A DNA stretch of 64,000 nucleotides, taken from NCBI GenBank assembly GCA_017407705.1, contig JAFQWA010000007.1, positions 1-64,000 of the forward strand. The letters run 5' to 3'. This document shows positions 16,944 to 27,149 of this stretch, piece by piece; the first letter of the stretch is position 1; each line of letters opens with the position of its first letter. This stretch comes from Clostridia bacterium. GTDB taxonomy: Bacteria; Bacillota; Clostridia; Oscillospirales; Acutalibacteraceae. Position numbers and translations under genes: made by a program. The notes below the pieces were generated by a model. The model was not told the DNA's origin. It ran no database searches and saw only the letters and a program-made list of their open reading frames with translations.

Positions 16944-18830
16944 ATGAAAAAAGTACTTACATCTCTTTTATGTGTTTTACTGGTAGTTTCCATATTCGTG
17001 ACTCACGCTATGGCAACCACCAAACCCTCTACTGATGAAAGTCAGTTTATGCCCATTAACGGTGCAAGACTTGCCGCTTTCGGTGATAGTATTACAGAGT
17101 ACGGAAGCTATTGGCAGGGCATAGTAGCTGAAGAAACCGGCGCTACTGTTGTTAACTGCGGTAAAGGCGGCAGTAATACAGGCTATGCCAATAACCACGC
17201 TCTTGAAAGATTTGACCGCGTGGTAGCACCGCAATTCCCTGATTTTGTTACCATCATGTTTGGTGTTAACGATGCGGTTAAACGTACAGGTATGAATTCA
17301 GCTGTTCCTCTGGATGAATTTGAAGAGAATATTAAAACCATTATCTCCAAGGTAAAAGCCATCGGTGCTATTCCGATTTTGATCACAGAGCACCACGTTG
17401 AAGAAACTGCCTGGTATTCAAGATACGATGAGGAGAGATTTGCTGCTGACGGTGGCATCAATGCTTATCTTGATAAGTATTATGATGTTGAACGTACCAT
17501 TGCACAAGAGCAGAATATACATATCATAGATTTCACCGAAGAGCTTGATAAATACGCACAGGCTGATGTACTGCAGGCTGACGGCGTTCACTTCACAAAA
17601 GCAGGTCAGGACGTTTTGGCAAACTGCATTTCCACATTCCTTAAAGAGAATTTCCCCGGTGTTGCACCCGAAACATCTACCAAATACACCGTAACCTCTG
17701 CAACCACCACTGTTGCAGGTCAGACTACTACTGCACCTGTGGTTGATCCCGGTAACGGTCCTAAGCAGTACACCACTGTTTGCAATTTCACAGTGCTTCC
17801 CGGCGGTGTAAATAAAACCAACATCTCATCTGTTTCCATTGTGGATGAAAAGGGACTGTGCGCTCCTGATTCCACCGATACAAAACTGCTTGCACTTATT
17901 CCCGGTGCCGGGGCAGACGCTACAACTGCTGCCGCCACATACACCTTCGGCTTTGGAGGAAGCGGTAGTTCAAAAACCGAGAAGCCCAACGTGGTTATGG
18001 CAGGTGACGGTCTTAGAATCTGGATCAATTTCACCTGTGATGAATACCAGACCTTAAGCTTTAACTTCACACTCCACACTTATGGTGACTCTGAAAACGT
18101 TACCGGTGCGGCTTTTACTGTTAAAGGCGTTACTGTTGAAGATCAGGGTCAGTGGGTGATGATTCCTTACTCTGCATTTACTAACTCCACAGGCAGTCTG
18201 GAAGATTCAACCAACGGCACCAGAGAACAGAGAATTGCGGCTATCAATCGTATTGGTATTTCTGCAACAGTTCCCACTGCCAGTGATGTTAACTATATTT
18301 ACAGCATTTATGTTGATAGCTTAGGCTACTATACAAACGTTGAGGAAACAACTGAGACCACTGCTTCAACTACCGCAGAGGTCACTACTGCAGCAACCAC
18401 CACAGCGCCTGAAAATTATGAAAATCCCTATACCGTTAGCGGCGGATTTATTTCGGGTGTGGCTGATAACAGCATTGATAACTTTGTAGCTTCATTTAAT
18501 TGCACCAACGGTGCGTCGGTGGTTATCAAAAGCGGAGAAGATACCGTTACATCAGGTAAGCTTGCTACAGGTATGATAGTGCAGATTTTGCAGGACGGTA
18601 ATGTGGTTGACCAGTTTACTGTGGTAATCTACGGCGATATTGACGGTGACGGAAATATTAACGCATCGGATATGCTTTCCTTAAAACGTGTGCTTTTGCT
18701 GGTAAGCGATCTTGATGGTGCATACAAAATTGCGGCTAACGTTACCCACAAAGAAACTGTGGATGCCACCGCTACCGATATGCTTAAATTAAAACGAGTA
18801 TTATTGATGGTGGATACCATAACTCAATAA
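16944..18830 (+). CDS. Secreted SGNH esterase with C-terminal dockerin
   Basis: A 628-residue modular exported enzyme. A signal peptide (1-24) precedes an SGNH esterase domain (about 40-235) with FGDSIT (Ser49), FGVND (Asn109) and DGVHFT (Asp213, His216). A Thr-rich linker (236-275) leads to a beta-sandwich module (about 276-465), a second Thr/Ala linker, a small beta module (about 490-555) and a type I dockerin. The first dockerin repeat, GDIDGDGNINASDMLSLKR, has a complete calcium loop; the second, from about 600, keeps DMLKLKRVLL but has lost most calcium ligands. Likely deacetylates plant polysaccharides. Whether a cohesin scaffold exists cannot be judged here. Confidence 0.9.
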   Translation: MKKVLTSLLCVLLVVSIFVTHAMATTKPSTDESQFMPINGARLAAFGDSITEYGSYWQGIVAEETGATVVNCGKGGSNTGYANNHALERFDRVVAPQFPDFVTIMFGVNDAVKRTGMNSAVPLDEFEENIKTIISKVKAIGAIPILITEHHVEETAWYSRYDEERFAADGGINAYLDKYYDVERTIAQEQNIHIIDFTEELDKYAQADVLQADGVHFTKAGQDVLANCISTFLKENFPGVAPETSTKYTVTSATTTVAGQTTTAPVVDPGNGPKQYTTVCNFTVLPGGVNKTNISSVSIVDEKGLCAPDSTDTKLLALIPGAGADATTAAATYTFGFGGSGSSKTEKPNVVMAGDGLRIWINFTCDEYQTLSFNFTLHTYGDSENVTGAAFTVKGVTVEDQGQWVMIPYSAFTNSTGSLEDSTNGTREQRIAAINRIGISATVPTASDVNYIYSIYVDSLGYYTNVEETTETTASTTAEVTTAATTTAPENYENPYTVSGGFISGVADNSIDNFVASFNCTNGASVVIKSGEDTVTSGKLATGMIVQILQDGNVVDQFTVVIYGDIDGDGNINASDMLSLKRVLLLVSDLDGAYKIAANVTHKETVDATATDMLKLKRVLLMVDTITQ

Positions 18831-19571: not shown

Positions 19572-20708
19572 TTGCTGAAGGGTTATCTTGACAATGCGGC
19601 AACTACACAGTTGTGTGATGAATCGAAAAATGCCATAATATCAGCGCTGGATTGTTTTGGAAATCCCTCGTCGTTACATAAGCTGGGGCAAATAAGCTCT
19701 GCTCAGTTGGAAAGTGCCCGTGCCAACGTTGCTAATGAGATAAAAGCAGATAAGAGTGAGATATATTTCACCTCAGGCGGTACTGAGTCGGACAACCTGG
19801 CTATAAGAGGTGCTGCTATGGCACTGAAACGTAGGGGTAATAAAATAGTCACCACTGCTTTTGAACACGCCGCAGTGCTTTCCGCTATGGCTGATTTGCA
19901 AAAGCAAGGCTTTGAGGTGGTTTATTTAAACCCTGATGAAAGCGGCACTGTGCCGGTATCGGCATTTGAAAATGCCATTGATGATAAGACTATACTGGTA
20001 AGCTGTATGTATATTAACAACGAAACCGGTGCAGTGTTGCCTGTACAGTCTTTAAAGGCGATTATCAAGCGCAAAAAGTCTCCTGCAGTTTTACATTGTG
20101 ATGCCACTCAGGCTTTCGGAAAATACACGTTAAACCCCGAAAAAGAGGGGATAGACTTAATGACGCTGAGTGCCCATAAAATTCACGGGCCAAAGGGCGT
20201 GGGTGCGCTTTACATCAAAAAGGGTGTAAGAGTATTGCCCATAACCTTCGGCGGCGGTCAGGAGAAGACTATTCGTCCCGGCACTGAGCCGTTACCACTG
20301 ATTTTGGGATTTGCTGTTGCGGTGGAAAGTCTTGGTGATAAAAAGGCAAACGAGCAAAACGCTTTGCAGATAAAAGAGTATCTTAAAAACAAGCTCAGTG
20401 AGTTTGATGACGTTGTAATAAATTCTCCCGAAAATTCAACTGCTTATATTTTGAATTTTTCGGTTATGGGTATCAGAAGCGAAACCATGCTTCATTTTTT
20501 GGAGCAAAAAGGAGTTTACGTTTCCTCAGGCAGTGCTTGTTCAAAGGGTAAAGCCAGTCACGTGCTTAGTGCCCTTAATTTTAACAGAGATAGGATAGAC
20601 AGTGCTGTCAGAGTAAGCTTTTCAAGGTATTCTACCGTTGAAGACGCAGATATGCTGTATGATGCCATAAAAGAGGCAAGGACAAGCCTTATAAGGTCAA
20701 AAAGATAA
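19572..20708 (+). CDS. nifS: Cysteine desulfurase
   Basis: PLP enzyme releasing sulfur from cysteine as an enzyme persulfide. YLDNAATT lies at the N-terminus, the PLP lysine is Lys203 in SAHKIHGPKG, and the sulfur-carrying Cys323 is in SSGSACSKGK. 378 residues match the NifS/IscS group. The start is taken as TTG 19572 because no in-frame ATG or GTG lies upstream and family members start just before YLDNAATT; the ribosome site is poor. thiI follows after 15 bases, so the sulfur is probably passed to ThiI for 4-thiouridine in tRNA, the arrangement known from B. subtilis nifZ-thiI. Confidence 0.93.
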   Translation: MLKGYLDNAATTQLCDESKNAIISALDCFGNPSSLHKLGQISSAQLESARANVANEIKADKSEIYFTSGGTESDNLAIRGAAMALKRRGNKIVTTAFEHAAVLSAMADLQKQGFEVVYLNPDESGTVPVSAFENAIDDKTILVSCMYINNETGAVLPVQSLKAIIKRKKSPAVLHCDATQAFGKYTLNPEKEGIDLMTLSAHKIHGPKGVGALYIKKGVRVLPITFGGGQEKTIRPGTEPLPLILGFAVAVESLGDKKANEQNALQIKEYLKNKLSEFDDVVINSPENSTAYILNFSVMGIRSETMLHFLEQKGVYVSSGSACSKGKASHVLSALNFNRDRIDSAVRVSFSRYSTVEDADMLYDAIKEARTSLIRSKR

Positions 20709-20723
20709 ATTTAAGGGGAATAT

Positions 20724-21893
20724 ATGAGAGAAATTATATTGATAAAAAACGGAGAGTTGGCGCTTAAGGGTCTTAACCGTCACACCTTCGAGGATGTAAT
20801 GATAAAAAACATCAAAATGTCTATAAAAAGCCTGGGTCAGGTGAAAATAACCAAAGCTCAGTCCACTATTATGGTAGAGCCTCAGTGTGAGGACTATGAT
20901 ATGGACGAAGCGGCAAAGAGGATAGGCAAGGTGTTTGGCATTGCGGCGTTTTCACGTGCTTGCGTTGCCGAGAAAAATATGGATGATATTTTAGCCAAAG
21001 CCCCTGATTATCTTAAGGAGCAGCTGGAGTCTGCCAATACCTTCAAGGTGGTGGCAAAACGCTCTGACAAGGCTTTTGAGTACAAATCACCTGATATTTG
21101 CTGTATGACAGGTGAGGCACTGCTTAACGCTTACCCTCATCTTACGGTAGATGTTCATAACCCCGAAGTTACCGTTATGGTTGAAATAAGAGATTACGGT
21201 GCATATATCCACGCTGATCAGTTGCCCGGTGCAGGTGGTATGCCTGTAGGTACCGGCGGTAAAGCAGCTATACTGATTTCAGGCGGAATTGACAGTCCCG
21301 TTGCCGCTTATATGATGGCAAAACGTGGTGTAGAGCTTACTGCAATTCACTTTGCAAGTCCGCCTTATACCAGCGAGAGGGCAGAGCAGAAGGTAAAGGA
21401 TCTTTTATCTATCGTTGCTCAGTATGCAGGGCCTATAAACTTTATTTACGTGCCCTTTACCGAGATTCAGGAGCAGATCGCAAGAAACTGTCCTGATGAC
21501 CTTACAACCTTGGTAATGCGTAGATATATGATGAAGCTGGCAACTGCCATTGCTAAAAATAAAGGCTGTGATGCTCTTATTACAGGTGAGAGTATAGGTC
21601 AGGTAGCAAGTCAGACTATGAAGGCGTTAGCCGTTACCGATGCCGCTACCGATATGCCGGTGTTCCGTCCTTTGATCGGTATGGATAAGGATGAAATCAT
21701 TGCCATAGCAAGAAAGATCGGCACCTTCGAAACGTCAGTACTTCCCTTTGAGGATTGCTGCACAGTATTTACTCCTAAGCACCCGAGAACACGTCCTAAG
21801 CTTGAAGCAGTTGAGACTGCCGAAAATATGATCGACGGTGTGGCACTTAGTGAGGTTGCTATACAGAACGTTAAATACGAAAGAATAATCTGA
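20724..21893 (+). CDS. thiI: tRNA 4-thiouridine sulfurtransferase
   Basis: A 389-residue ThiI. The N-terminal ferredoxin-like and THUMP regions (1-165) bind tRNA; the PP-loop SGGIDSP at 186-192 adenylates U8; EDCCTVFTPKHP near 343-354 is the conserved Cys block. The C-terminal rhodanese domain of the E. coli protein is absent, as in most Firmicutes, which fits a dedicated NifS partner. AAGGGGA stands before the ATG. It lies 15 bases after nifS and 19 bases before the cinA fusion gene. Confidence 0.95.
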   Translation: MREIILIKNGELALKGLNRHTFEDVMIKNIKMSIKSLGQVKITKAQSTIMVEPQCEDYDMDEAAKRIGKVFGIAAFSRACVAEKNMDDILAKAPDYLKEQLESANTFKVVAKRSDKAFEYKSPDICCMTGEALLNAYPHLTVDVHNPEVTVMVEIRDYGAYIHADQLPGAGGMPVGTGGKAAILISGGIDSPVAAYMMAKRGVELTAIHFASPPYTSERAEQKVKDLLSIVAQYAGPINFIYVPFTEIQEQIARNCPDDLTTLVMRRYMMKLATAIAKNKGCDALITGESIGQVASQTMKALAVTDAATDMPVFRPLIGMDKDEIIAIARKIGTFETSVLPFEDCCTVFTPKHPRTRPKLEAVETAENMIDGVALSEVAIQNVKYERII

Positions 21894-21912: not shown

Positions 21913-24900
21913 ATGAACGCAGAAATAATTTCTGTTGGAACAGAACTTATACTTGGAGATATAGTTAATACTGATGCACAGTATCTGTCACAAAAGTTGG
22001 CATCTATGGGTATTGACGTGTTTTATCAGTCCTCTGTTGGTGATAATCCTCAGCGACTCAGAAGAGTGCTGTCTATTGCGGTATCAAGAAGCAATATCAT
22101 CATTTTAACCGGCGGCCTTGGTCCCACTCAGGACGATCTTACCGTTAAAACCGTTTGTGATGCAGTGGGCATTGAAATGGTGCAGGACGAGGCTGCGTTG
22201 GAAAATATAAAGCAGTGCTTTGCAAAGTCGGGCAGAGAGCTTACTGAGAATAATCTCAAGCAGGCTATGGTTCCTAAGGGTGCAACTGTGTTCCAGAACA
22301 CCTGCGGTACTGCCCCCGGATGTGCTATTTCTCAGGGTGAGCAGTGCATAATTTTACTGCCCGGTCCGCCCAGCGAAATGAAAGCAATGTTTGAAAACGG
22401 CGTTGCACAGTATCTTATGAAATATTCCGACGGTGTAACTCTGTCTAAATTTGTTAATATCTATGGCTTAGGCGAGTCTAAAGTGGCTGAGATGGTGGGC
22501 GATCTGCTCAATGGCAGCAACCCCACTGTGGCACCTTACGCTAAAGACGGTGAAGTGGCACTGCGTGTTACCGCTAAAGCACAAAACCAGACCGCCGCTG
22601 ATGCTATGTGCAGAGAAATGGTGAGAGAACTTAAAAACCGTTTGGGCACTGCAGTTTACGGTGTGGATAAGGATAGTATTCAGCAGGTTGTTGTTGAGAT
22701 GCTCCAATCTAAGAGAATGACCGTTTCTACTGCTGAATCCTGCACTGCAGGACTTATCTCTAAGCGCATAACAGAAATCTCAGGCTCATCTGAGGTGTTC
22801 AATATGGGCGCTGTTACTTACTCAAATGAGAGTAAAAACAAGATGCTTGATGTTCCTATGGAAGCTATCGAGAAATACGGTGCCGTATCTCCTCAGGTGG
22901 CTGCGTTAATGGCAAAGGGTGTGCGTGAGGCATCTGGCTCTGATATTGGTATCAGCATTACAGGTATAGCTGGTCCTAAGAGCGATGACAGCAACAAGCC
23001 TGTTGGACTTAGTTATATCGCCCTTTCCGATAAAAACGGCGAGTATGTTATAGAAAGTATGAAGGGTGAGCACCACGGCAGAGAGTATATCCGTTATGCG
23101 TCATCCTCTGAGGCTTTAAATCTCATCAGACTTTATCTTGAAGCCTATCCTTCACAAATCAAGGGTGTAACCTTACTTACTGATTATGAACCCTATAAGC
23201 CTGAGGTGACAAAAGCTCAGCCTGAATTTACAGAAACTGTGCCCGTTGCAGAAAAGCCTCAGATTAATATTGCGGATTTTCAAATTCCCGTTACAGAGTT
23301 TACCGGCAGCACTGAAAAGGAAGACGTTTTAGCATCTATTGCAAAAATTTTCGGTGAGACCGTTATTACTCCTGCACCCCAGTCTCAGCCCATAACAGAG
23401 CCTGTACTGCCTTTTGAACCTAACGTGCAAGAGGAAGTAACTGAGGATAGCGTTGAGGAGACTGTAGAGGAGATTGCTGAAGAAACTGTGGAAGAAACAG
23501 TTGTACAAGAGGTTGCTGAAGAAACAGTTGAACAGCCCGTTGAAGAGGTTGTTGAGCCGGCACCTGTGCAGGTGGAGGAAAAACAGCCCGTTAACGAGAT
23601 AGAGGATATTTTCAACAGCATCAGCCAGAAATTAGCCGCTGAAACTACTCCCGATATAATCGAGGAAGAGTCTGTTGAGAATGTGGCTGATGAACAACCG
23701 GAGCAGCAAAAGCAAGACTCTGTTCTTATAAGAATACTGAAATATTTTATTCCTTGGAAAGGCGATCCTAAGGGAGAAATCGTAAGAAAGATAGTGTTTG
23801 TGGTTGCTCTTGTTACATTCATTGCAGTGGGCATCCACCTTATCGGCTACTATATGGCGCCGGTGCAGACAGAGAATCTGCAAAAGGAACTGGTGTCTAT
23901 ATACAAAGCTCCCGAAAAAGAGGAGATACCCTATGCCAGTGAGATCTCCAACCCCGACTTTAAGGATCTTTTGATCCGTAACAAGGATACTATCGGCTGG
24001 ATCAAGATAGGTGATACCAATATCAACTATCCCGTTGTTCAGCACCAGAAGGACGATTACTATCTCCGATTGGATTTTGACGGTAAATACAACCGTTGCG
24101 GTACTATTTACGCTAACACTGTAAGCAATATGGAATATAACAAGGAAAGCAAAAACCTTGTTTTATATGGCCATAATATGAGAGACGATAAGTCCATGTT
24201 CAGCCAGTTGCTCAGATACCGTAATCTGGAGTTTTATAAGGAAAATCCCGTTATTACCTTTAACACCATTCATAAAGACGGTCAGTGGAAAATATTTGCC
24301 GTAATGACCACCAACTCCAAAAAGGCTCACGATAACGGTAAGGTGTTTAATTACAGAAGAAGTGACTTTACTTCCGAGCAGGATTTTATGGAGTGGATTG
24401 AGCAGTGCAGAATACGTTCTGAGATAAACACTCCCGTTGATATAGTTGCTTCCGATGAAATACTCACCCTGCAGACCTGCGCTTATGAGTTTGACGAGGC
24501 AAGATATATAGTTATGGCACGTCGTGTACGTCCCGGAGAGTCAGCTGACGTTGAGGTCGGTATTGCTTCTAAAAATCCCAACACAGTATATCCCCAGATC
24601 TGGTACGATAAAAAGGGGATAAAGAATCCCCACGCATCTGTGGCTGCTACAACTTCACCCACAGAGCCGATTACCAGACCTTCTATTCCTACCCGTCCTA
24701 TGGGTACTGACGAGAGCACAAGTGCTACCTCTACTACCAATCAGAGCGGCACTACCGGCACTGCAAATTCCACTACAAAAGCGCCTACTCAGGCTCCGTC
24801 GGGCTCCACTACCACAGTGGCTCCCACAGCGGCACCTACCACAGCGGCGCTTACAACTGCCGCACCCACTACCGCTGCACCTACTACTGCAGCGCCCACT

Positions 24901-24987
24901 GAGGCTCCTACAGATGCGCCTACCGATGCACCTACAGAAGCTCCCACAGATGCGCCGACAGACGCACCTACCGAAGCCACAACTTAA
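21913..24987 (+). CDS. CinA-transmembrane-class B sortase fusion protein
   Basis: One uninterrupted 1024-residue frame. Residues 1-417 are a complete CinA: the MoaB-like COG1058 domain (ISVGTELILGD, TGGLGPTQDD, LPGPPSEM) and the C-terminal PncC deamidase domain (STAESCTAGLISKRIT, ISITGIAGP), enzymes of pyridine nucleotide salvage. Residues 418-605 are an acidic, repetitive E/V/P-rich linker. A single helix at about 625-647 crosses the membrane. Residues 670-875 form a class B sortase with LYGHNM (His754), TLQTC (Cys856) and Arg864 intact. The tail from about 915 is Thr/Ala/Pro-rich. AAGGAAA precedes ATG. CinA would be cytosolic and the sortase outside. No ribosome site or stop separates the parts. 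Confidence 0.88.
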   Translation: MNAEIISVGTELILGDIVNTDAQYLSQKLASMGIDVFYQSSVGDNPQRLRRVLSIAVSRSNIIILTGGLGPTQDDLTVKTVCDAVGIEMVQDEAALENIKQCFAKSGRELTENNLKQAMVPKGATVFQNTCGTAPGCAISQGEQCIILLPGPPSEMKAMFENGVAQYLMKYSDGVTLSKFVNIYGLGESKVAEMVGDLLNGSNPTVAPYAKDGEVALRVTAKAQNQTAADAMCREMVRELKNRLGTAVYGVDKDSIQQVVVEMLQSKRMTVSTAESCTAGLISKRITEISGSSEVFNMGAVTYSNESKNKMLDVPMEAIEKYGAVSPQVAALMAKGVREASGSDIGISITGIAGPKSDDSNKPVGLSYIALSDKNGEYVIESMKGEHHGREYIRYASSSEALNLIRLYLEAYPSQIKGVTLLTDYEPYKPEVTKAQPEFTETVPVAEKPQINIADFQIPVTEFTGSTEKEDVLASIAKIFGETVITPAPQSQPITEPVLPFEPNVQEEVTEDSVEETVEEIAEETVEETVVQEVAEETVEQPVEEVVEPAPVQVEEKQPVNEIEDIFNSISQKLAAETTPDIIEEESVENVADEQPEQQKQDSVLIRILKYFIPWKGDPKGEIVRKIVFVVALVTFIAVGIHLIGYYMAPVQTENLQKELVSIYKAPEKEEIPYASEISNPDFKDLLIRNKDTIGWIKIGDTNINYPVVQHQKDDYYLRLDFDGKYNRCGTIYANTVSNMEYNKESKNLVLYGHNMRDDKSMFSQLLRYRNLEFYKENPVITFNTIHKDGQWKIFAVMTTNSKKAHDNGKVFNYRRSDFTSEQDFMEWIEQCRIRSEINTPVDIVASDEILTLQTCAYEFDEARYIVMARRVRPGESADVEVGIASKNPNTVYPQIWYDKKGIKNPHASVAATTSPTEPITRPSIPTRPMGTDESTSATSTTNQSGTTGTANSTTKAPTQAPSGSTTTVAPTAAPTTAALTTAAPTTAAPTTAAPTEAPTDAPTDAPTEAPTDAPTDAPTEATT

Positions 24988-25005: not shown

Positions 25006-25044
25006 ACAGCCGAACAATAACATAAAGGTTGTTCGGCTGTTTTA
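25006..25044 (+). terminator. Terminator or attenuator between the two sortase-type genes
   Basis: ACAGCCGAACAA (25006-25017) and TTGTTCGGCTGT (25029-25040) with TTT after. A second hairpin, AATGTC-GATTTTT-GACATT (25054-25072), ends just before the GGAGGTG of the next gene. No promoter fits between this stem and the next start. Confidence 0.75.
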
Positions 25045-25085: not shown

Positions 25086-27149
25086 ATGGATAAACAGCCT
25101 GAATTTCAGGAGGAAAATGTAAATCAGCAGCCTACCAGTACCGATGAACAGATTTCGTTGATGCTGGATGAGCTTTTTGGCAAGGAAACTGATGAGGAAA
25201 TATCAGAGCAGCCTGAACCCGTTGCTGTTGAGGATACAGTGAAAAAACCGAAAAAACTGTTAAAACCGCTGTTAGCGTTGCTTTTGGTAGTGTGTATTAT
25301 CATTGGCTCAGTGACGGCAGTATCATATTATAAAAAGGCCACGGTGCCTGATGCTTATGATAAGTCAGTAGCTTACAGCAGAGAGCTTTATTCATCGGAT
25401 AAACAGTATGATATGCCCGAACAGTATTTGCCGGAGTTTGGTGGGTTGTATAACGCCAATCGTGATATTTTCGGCTGGATAGACATTGAGGGAACTGATA
25501 TAAATCATCCTGTTATGTCCTATAAAAACAACGACTATTACAAGGATCATTTATTTAACAACCGCTCCAATAAATACGGTACCTTTTATTTTGCTTCCAA
25601 TTACAAGCAGCTTGAGTATAATTACAACACTGTAATTTACGGCAACAATTTCTCCGACTCCCGTGCTTTTGGTGAGCTTGTGAAATACACAGATGCTGAC
25701 TTTGTAGAAGAAAACCCCATTATAAATATGGATACTTTAATGGAGAAGGTATCCTGGAAGATATTTGCCGTAGTGCTGTATGACAGTGATAAATACAACC
25801 CTGCCAAAAACAGCTTTTACGACGACGTTGAGTTCAGTGAGTTTATTTTGGATATTGAAAAATATACCCTTATTAAAACCTCGGTGGACGTTAGTGAGGA
25901 GGATGTTTTGCTCACACTGATCACCGATCATAACAGTAAAAACGGTGATAAATTGGCTGTTTTTGCCCGTGCTATGAGGTTTTATGAGAGTGAAGAGGAT
26001 GAGGTGTTTGCTCATTTTAACGATGCAGCACAAACCCCGTCTAATCAGCACAGCACCACTGATGAGCAAAAGATAACTGCTAACGCTACTGTTTTGCAGT
26101 CAACCTTAACTCAGGGCACAACCCAGAGTCCGGACACTACTCAAACATCGGTTGAAGCCACAACTGCTACAACCACTAAAACCACCGCTACAACCACCAA
26201 AGTCACTACTAAACCCACCACAACCAAACCTACTACCGCTAAACCAACTACAACCACCAAACCCACTACTAAGCCCACTACTAAGCCTACCACCACCAAA
26301 AAACCTACTACCACCAAGCCTACCACCACTCAAAAGCCATCAGGCACAGCAAAAAAGATACGTGTAAAGGATTCCTCAACAGGTAAGATATATTATGAGG
26401 AAGCACCTGCTATAATTGCAAAAATAATTGAAGCTGAAATGGGCTCAAGCTATGAACTTGAGGCATTAAAGGCTCAGGCAGTTGCTGCATATACTTATAT
26501 GCTTTACAGCGGTGCGGCAGACGGTAAAGCCCCGTCGGCACCTATGAAAACTGCAGGAAGCCGTGCTATACAAGCCGCTAACGCTGTTGCAGGACAAACC
26601 ATAACCTATAACGGTCAGCTGTGTAATGCGGTGTATTCTGCAACCTCTGCAGGAAAAACCGCTAACTGCAACGAGGTCTGGACTGCAGACCTGCCGTATC
26701 TCCGCTCAGTGGACTCAGCGGTGGATGAAAGCGTTTCTAACTTTAAGACCACCCGTGTTTACACTGCAAGTAACATAGCGAAATGGGTGAAATCCGAGTA
26801 CGGTGTGGACCTTACCACCGTTAAGGATAAAACCAAGTGGTTTAGCTGCACTTACGACGCCAATAAGCTTTATGTGAAAACAGTTTCCTTAGGCGGACTT
26901 AAGTCGGTTAAAGGCATCAATTTACGTTATGATCTGTTTACTTCATCCCGAACAGGCTCGTCTAACACCCTTCGTTCCCACGCTTTTACCGTGTCTTACA
27001 GCTCATCAAACGATAGCTTCACCTTTACCGTTAAGGGCTACGGTCACGGCGTTGGACTGAGTCAGACCGGCGCTAATCAGTATGCTAAAAAGGGCTGGAG
27101 CTACGCTGAGATATTAAAGCATTATTATAAAGGCGTTACTTTATCATAA
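25086..27149 (+). CDS. Membrane-anchored pseudo-sortase fused to SpoIID/LytB domain
   Basis: A 687-residue protein. A cytoplasmic tail (1-58, acidic then KKPKK) leads to a membrane helix (about 61-82). Residues 110-300 have the class B sortase fold pattern (NRDIFGWIDIEGTDINHPVM, NRSNKYGTFYF), but the catalytic His is Asn187 (YGNNF) and the Cys is Asp281 (TLITD); Arg295 remains, so transpeptidase activity is not expected. After a TTKPTT-rich linker (about 345-420) comes a SpoIID domain (about 425-687) with AEMGSSYELEALKAQAVAAY, catalytic-type Glu451, and GYGHGVGLSQTGA; SpoIID cleaves denuded glycan strands in engulfment. Start ATG 25086 is set by GGAGGTG; the frame is open from 25029. Confidence 0.87.
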   Translation: MDKQPEFQEENVNQQPTSTDEQISLMLDELFGKETDEEISEQPEPVAVEDTVKKPKKLLKPLLALLLVVCIIIGSVTAVSYYKKATVPDAYDKSVAYSRELYSSDKQYDMPEQYLPEFGGLYNANRDIFGWIDIEGTDINHPVMSYKNNDYYKDHLFNNRSNKYGTFYFASNYKQLEYNYNTVIYGNNFSDSRAFGELVKYTDADFVEENPIINMDTLMEKVSWKIFAVVLYDSDKYNPAKNSFYDDVEFSEFILDIEKYTLIKTSVDVSEEDVLLTLITDHNSKNGDKLAVFARAMRFYESEEDEVFAHFNDAAQTPSNQHSTTDEQKITANATVLQSTLTQGTTQSPDTTQTSVEATTATTTKTTATTTKVTTKPTTTKPTTAKPTTTTKPTTKPTTKPTTTKKPTTTKPTTTQKPSGTAKKIRVKDSSTGKIYYEEAPAIIAKIIEAEMGSSYELEALKAQAVAAYTYMLYSGAADGKAPSAPMKTAGSRAIQAANAVAGQTITYNGQLCNAVYSATSAGKTANCNEVWTADLPYLRSVDSAVDESVSNFKTTRVYTASNIAKWVKSEYGVDLTTVKDKTKWFSCTYDANKLYVKTVSLGGLKSVKGINLRYDLFTSSRTGSSNTLRSHAFTVSYSSSNDSFTFTVKGYGHGVGLSQTGANQYAKKGWSYAEILKHYYKGVTLS

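Follow-up and report, generated by a model that had tools for sequence, protein, structure and literature searches.

A CinA–class B sortase fusion in a conserved gene neighbourhood of one clostridial order

The usual class B sortase is a protein of about 250 amino acids with a short N-terminal anchor, and the SrtB enzymes of S. aureus, B. anthracis and C. difficile share their fold, a His-Cys-Arg triad and one N-terminal transmembrane (TM) helix. Known CinA proteins, of which the T. thermophilus enzyme (TtCinA) is built of COG1058, KH and PncC domains, carry neither a membrane helix nor a sortase. The acid triad and the signatures of COG1058 are defined in the available text of PMC3680494, and that of PMC4246079 gives Lys-301 and Thr-340 as PncC residues of TtCinA. 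Occasional fusions of CinA to other domains are noted in PMC3855486 (available part), where such proteins were set aside. Gephyrin and Glp are MoeA-fold scaffolds that work with membrane receptors, and GlpR, the receptor of Glp, has charged disordered regions (available parts of PMC10522489 and PMC11733289). An archaeal MoeA-PBP fusion is described in the available part of PMC11733289 as likely cytoplasmic, without a TM helix or a sortase. In the open-access literature searched, we found nothing relevant on CinA, PncC or NMN deamidase together with a sortase, in agreement with the first-pass annotation, which had stated that no functional link between CinA and sortases is known. The same literature yielded nothing relevant on class B sortases with SpoIID (including in Oscillospirales and Ruminococcus) or on pseudosortases.

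The locus described here lies in a 64,000-nucleotide stretch of a Clostridia bacterium contig, called the window below. Its fusion protein shares with TtCinA the three domains and all the active-site residues checked, but it continues into a linker, a TM helix and a sortase. With the SrtB enzymes it shares the fold, the triad and the single N-terminal TM helix; it differs from them by the 600 residues of CinA and linker that precede this helix and by a Thr/Pro tail that follows the sortase. The next gene encodes a domain that matches the SpoIID/LytB enzymes (TIGR02669, over the cut-off) but is joined to a degenerate sortase. The likeness to gephyrin and to corynebacterial Glp/GlpR lies in an enzyme fold related to MoCF/MoeA that would act as a cytosolic scaffold with a membrane partner, whereas these proteins are of the MoeA lineage, lack a sortase or SpoIID and have unfused partners. 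The N-terminal half of the window protein is CinA and not of the MoeA lineage (NCBIfam, Foldseek), and the analogy is therefore one of working mode only. The archaeal fusion resembles the window protein in joining a MoCF-family enzyme to a second module.

The fusion gene and its neighbours

A single open frame joining a complete CinA, an acidic linker, one membrane helix, a sortase B domain and a Thr/Ala/Pro tail had been proposed from the letters of the window, and Pfam, NCBIfam and an AlphaFold model all agree with this architecture. The features of the locus are as follows.

19572..20708, + strand: nifS-type cysteine desulfurase, first gene of the conserved neighbourhood (Aminotran_5; gene order in relatives)
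20724..21893, + strand: thiI, ending 19 bases before the fusion gene (ThiI/THUMP; gene order in relatives)
21913..24987, + strand: CinA-TM-sortase B fusion gene, one open frame with an ATG start, 1024 aa (Pfam and NCBIfam domains)
21922..22416, + strand: MoCF/COG1058 domain, residues 4-168 (Pfam PF00994, over the cut-off)
22444..22662, + strand: CinA KH domain, residues 178-250 (Pfam PF18146, over the cut-off)
22672..23133, + strand: PncC NMN deamidase domain, residues 254-407 (Pfam PF02464, over the cut-off)
23143..23751, + strand: acidic low-complexity linker, predicted cytosolic, residues about 411-613, mostly predicted disordered
23752..23853, + strand: PWKGD juxtamembrane motif and predicted TM helix, about residues 614-647 (alignment)
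23950..24558, + strand: class B sortase domain, residues 680-882 with our own HMM (TIGR03064, Foldseek)
24643..24984, + strand: Thr/Ala/Pro-rich tail, predicted extracellular, residues 911-1024 (tandem repeats, predicted disordered)
25008..25038, + strand: terminator- or attenuator-like hairpin with TTTT behind it, downstream of the fusion gene (RNA fold, -15.5 kcal/mol)
25086..27149, + strand: next gene, with a short cytosolic tail, a TM helix, a degenerate class B sortase, a Thr/Pro linker and SpoIID/LytB (predicted)

The order MoCF, KH, PncC is that of known CinA proteins (Pfam, NCBIfam, Foldseek). The whole-length CinA model PRK00549 of NCBIfam scored 512.7 bits against a cut-off of 379, and with the N-terminal half of the AlphaFold model Foldseek retrieved T. 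thermophilus CinA (E 1e-35, 31% identity). Reading the catalytic residues by alignment, we found the MoCF acid triad (Glu11, Asp44, Asp75) and, in PncC, Lys308 and its companion residues Ser276, Tyr303 and Thr350; the COG1058 signatures GXEX3G and GGL/IGPX3D were also found in the translation. The CinA half is complete, and both of its predicted active sites keep their residues.

In the linker the pLDDT is below 50 across residues 426-599, and the DNA holds a tandem repeat at 23491-23542. Residues 400-640 contain no in-frame ATG, and no GTG there follows any of the ribosome-site motifs that we looked for; a separate start for the sortase is therefore not apparent, and we dropped the idea of an internal start yielding a free sortase. 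We also rejected a conserved short linker motif, whose pattern had been written after inspection of the linkers: it was found in 7 of 62 fused linkers (shuffle mean 0.3), in some lineages only and not in the window.

Basic residues flank the TM segment on its N-terminal side, and the model has a long helix at 620-664. The Pfam Sortase family matched residues 697-872 over its cut-off, the class B model TIGR03064 matched residues 624-867 with 158.2 bits (cut-off 153.75), and Foldseek with the C-terminal half found S. aureus sortase B (E 4e-19), 4lfd and 2oqw being among the matches. His754, Cys856 and Arg864 stand in the alignment at exactly the residues first claimed; the sortase is of class B, with an intact predicted triad. 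Across the tail, residues 911-1024, the pLDDT is below 50. Judging the topology from sequence, the single polypeptide has its CinA in the cytosol, crosses the membrane once and carries its class B sortase outside the cell.

The sortase part of the next gene scored 119.8 bits with TIGR03064, below the cut-off, and its triad positions are occupied by Asn, Asp and Lys, so that the triad is lost; the SpoIID/LytB part scored 165.7 bits with TIGR02669. The sequence GGAGGTG lies upstream of the ATG at 25086. This gene has no degenerate MoCF domain. A search of the window with Rfam gave zero matches.

The source genome (1.6 Mb, 38 contigs, 96% complete) has a single PncC, the fused one, and three sortases, namely the window fusion, a second class B enzyme and one of another type that adjoins a protein with a sorting-signal-like tail. 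The LPXTG model gave nothing above its cut-off over this genome; three candidate sorting tails of the form N[VA]STG were picked by eye and are not linked to the window sortase. The genome also encodes Spo0A and a second SpoIID, and the SpoIID domain of the window therefore appears to be an additional copy in an apparently spore-forming lineage.

Recurrence and gene order of the fusion

Whether the junction recurs in other genomes had been raised together with the original observation. PncC was matched in 180 of 200 genomes of the family, and all listed matches with an open frame of at least 660 aa were read; PncC and a sortase fold stand in one frame in at least 49 of the 200 genomes and in 34 of 135 genera, source genome included, a lower bound that comes from the PncC matches listed and leaves out one 572-aa frame (G072). 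Of the 49 fusions, 31 have an intact sortase triad and 14 a degenerate one, the other four being truncated or weak and unread (L187, L188, L191, L195); some relatives thus join CinA to a degenerate sortase instead of an active one. The same fusion turned up in examples taken from a search of the order, in five further families (f4, f9, f15, f23, f26). Two isolate species have it as well, with SpoIID in the same frame: Acetanaerobacterium elongatum (Oscillospiraceae at NCBI; 1192 aa as called) and Anaerotruncus colihominis (complete genome; 1403 aa as called). An assembly or frameshift artefact is ruled out, since different genera share the frame and isolates, one with a complete genome, have it too, and chance is excluded by the recurrence within the family. 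Among the matches listed from 291 genomes of the class, no sortase of another order stood in a frame longer than 545 aa, and class B sortases without a CinA fusion were common.

The gene order nifS-thiI-cinA (or pncC alone)-srtB-spoIID recurs in the relatives, and where the genes are separate they often stay adjacent. The parts are joined in several different fusion patterns. The fusion belongs to a conserved neighbourhood of one clostridial order, nifS-thiI-cinA/pncC-srtB-[degenerate CinA]-[degenerate sortase]-spoIID. The first-pass annotation had missed this operon, the neighbour that joins a degenerate sortase to SpoIID, and the degenerate copies of CinA described below. At 125 loci with distinct ThiI, counts that are not frequencies because the loci were picked partly for large frames, 63 are fused in some form: 37 with an active sortase, 5 with an active sortase and SpoIID, 9 with a degenerate sortase without SpoIID, 8 with a degenerate sortase and SpoIID, and 4 unread. 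As for the others, 43 are separate with a sortase within 400 bases and one has it further away; at 12 loci with CinA no sortase was found, and 6 lack PncC. The KGD juxtamembrane motif was present in 38 of 47 fused active sortases, in 41 of 102 active unfused sortases at cinA/pncC loci and in 4 of 46 at loci without cinA/pncC.

Adjacent co-transcribed genes fuse easily, and the fusion could be neutral, loss of a stop codon having joined two independent genes of one transcript and the CinA half being kept since CinA is needed. The gene order gives this explanation some ground. Where the genes are separate they overlap by 4 bases or sit within 100 bases of each other (L066, L068, L042), and parsimony on a quick ThiI tree, from which only this count was used because the search was short and many forks were open, gave at least 10 changes between the fused and separate states. 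The starred group of the tree that includes the window contains the fused loci L036 and L041 and the unfused L042, whose arrangement is found again in a second unfused MAG (L076). We nevertheless consider a purely neutral origin rather doubtful, since several partner arrangements exist, and for two further reasons that come from the state of the CinA half and of its degenerate copies in the relatives.

Residue loss and degenerate CinA copies

All four PncC residues (Ser/Tyr/Lys/Thr) are present in 62 of the 68 distinct fused frames. The six degenerate ones (L105, L113, L126, L127, L246, L252) include two from one species, and a second CinA is present in each of the six genomes concerned, whereas the fused PncC is the only one in 14 of 14 checked genomes where it is intact (Fisher 2.6e-5 over 20 genomes; G446, whose fused frame has no PncC, was excluded). 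Of 60 fused proteins, 22 have a degenerate MoCF acid triad, compared with 1 of 37 separate CinA proteins (p 6e-5), the fold being retained; both p-values are indicative only because the rows are related genomes. An altered active site with a kept fold is seen in these relatives, the window protein being intact. Residues are lost in genomes that have a second CinA, and the fold therefore persists where its chemistry is dispensable. We read this as pointing to a structural role of the fold within the fusion protein; catalysis would be kept where the cell has no other CinA. A neutral joining would not explain why a PncC-degenerate CinA stays fused in all six genomes that have a spare one.

In many relatives the counterpart of the next gene, or a neighbour, carries a degenerate MoCF domain of CinA type that is often membrane-tied. 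It was matched only weakly by the MoaB reference, and we used a profile of our own instead. Alignment with the CinA MoCF profile gave an hhalign probability of 98.8, and with an AlphaFold model of one example (pLDDT 80) Foldseek placed CinA first, followed by MoeA/gephyrin, including C. glutamicum MoeA2 with an FtsZ peptide. The iterated profile collected 76 frames, 26 with a sortase fold and SpoIID, 11 with SpoIID, 2 with a sortase fold and 37 without any other listed domain; hydropathy predicts a TM helix in 27 of these 37. A degenerate PncC-like part was detected in a set of 12 such sequences (hhalign 94.1, E 1e-7), and three degenerate-CinA examples had zero Pfam or NCBIfam matches over the cut-off. 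These membrane-tied copies form a separate conserved element, which also speaks against a fusion without consequence.

It had been suggested that the fusion could couple NAD salvage to surface transpeptidation, or that the PncC part could be a cytosolic anchor, and the interpretation is borne out in part. Coupling would mean that the CinA half changes its shape or oligomeric state on binding NMN or ADP-ribose and so controls the activity or clustering of the sortase, anchoring then following NAD turnover. The intact active sites of the window protein, the PncC residues kept in most fused frames and the moving domains of the asymmetric dimer of T. thermophilus CinA (available text of PMC4246079) are all compatible with it. 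This control is nonetheless unlikely: the absence of any other PncC accounts for the intact residues, the MoCF triad is often lost, 14 of the 49 family fusions carry a triad-less sortase, and a linker of about 200 mostly disordered residues lies between the two halves. That CinA is put near membrane processes for the sake of its own NMN deamidase/ADP-ribose pyrophosphatase, the sortase being a mere anchor, would suit the fusions to degenerate sortases and the TM anchors of degenerate MoCF copies but is very improbable, as 31 of the 45 family fusions that could be read keep the sortase triad and as it is the degenerate copies that have anchors of their own.

A proposed CinA-fold platform at the membrane

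The anchor side of the suggestion fared better, and the reading that we favour, at somewhat less than even probability, is that CinA folds in the cytosol form a platform which assembles a wall machine of sortase and SpoIID at the membrane, by analogy with gephyrin and Glp. We favour the platform because the fold outlives the loss of active-site residues, because its partners are active as well as degenerate sortases and because membrane-tied degenerate CinA copies are adjacent. The CinA fold would be an oligomerising platform in the cytosol, possibly pairing with the degenerate membrane-tied copies where these are present, and would hold together at the membrane the sortase, the degenerate sortase and the SpoIID-type glycan-cleaving enzyme. 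Their co-location would bring protein attachment and local wall opening to the same site, with reach on the two sides of the membrane supplied by the long acidic linker and by the Thr/Pro tails. CinA catalysis (NMN deamidation and ADP-ribose cleavage) would still be needed, and kept where the fused protein is the sole CinA, but would not be the reason why the fold persists in the fusion.

In the window the CinA residues are intact and the next gene has no degenerate MoCF domain, and a scaffold role there would therefore rest on the relatives. The counts in favour of the platform come from related, non-independent genomes, the degenerate-PncC class being six genomes with two of one species. The terminator-like hairpin, which lies between the fusion gene and the SpoIID gene, speaks against the platform. 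Since 12 of the 125 loci have CinA without a sortase and unfused sortase B is common, neither protein needs the other everywhere.

A broader form of the platform, possible if doubtful, would extend across the order and mix CinA folds that are enzymes with others that are pseudo-enzymes. Each fold would have its own membrane helix linking it to SpoIID, to a sortase or to a degenerate sortase, and a fold recruited from NAD recycling would thereby organise where surface proteins are attached and glycan is cleaved; it would be a second gephyrin-like case in bacteria, from a different enzyme family.

The recurrent fusion, the kept adjacency and the survival of the fold after the loss of active-site residues provide genomic evidence that links the NAD-recycling CinA to surface anchoring. 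They also define a set of proteins open to experiment, among them a degenerate-CinA family not described before, and at least two species of the Clostridia concerned are in culture. Should the platform be real, an enzyme family besides MoeA would also have become a membrane scaffold.

Neighbourhood of the fusion gene

Two features were recorded in the window near the gene that joins CinA to a class B sortase:

16944-18830, GDSL-type lipase/acylhydrolase with a type I dockerin domain at its C-terminus
25008-25038, strong hairpin with a short run of T, in the gap that separates the fusion gene from the SpoIID gene

The C-terminal dockerin suggests a cellulosome-like attachment of the first protein, and the hairpin could uncouple expression of the fusion gene from that of the SpoIID gene.

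Other sortases and candidate substrates of the genome

Three proteins of the window's genome (loci L268, L269 and L270; contigs C2, C29 and C28) have C-termini made up of N[VA]STG, a hydrophobic segment and a positively charged tail; as judged from these C-termini, they are possible class B sortase substrates. The two remaining sortase genes are:

L275, 593-1896, contig C19, third sortase
L277, contig C32, separate class B sortase

The gene directly ahead of the former encodes a protein whose C-terminus resembles a sorting signal, and the two likely form a dedicated pair. Next after the latter comes a protein that has abundant Asp/Cys repeats and motifs resembling zinc ribbons.

CinA variants in relatives

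In the genera of loci L049-L052, L074, L124, L193 and L198, the fusion partners of CinA are a degenerate sortase and SpoIID; most of these genera carry an extra class B sortase gene upstream of thiI. Degenerate, MoCF-like CinA copies were also found, among them:

L097, 8172-9314
L234, 1850-2911
L082, 8399-10969

Some members have a PncC-like part, a C-terminal membrane helix or fusion to SpoIID is frequent, and cinA/pncC and sortase genes adjoin these copies, which constitute a so far undescribed family.
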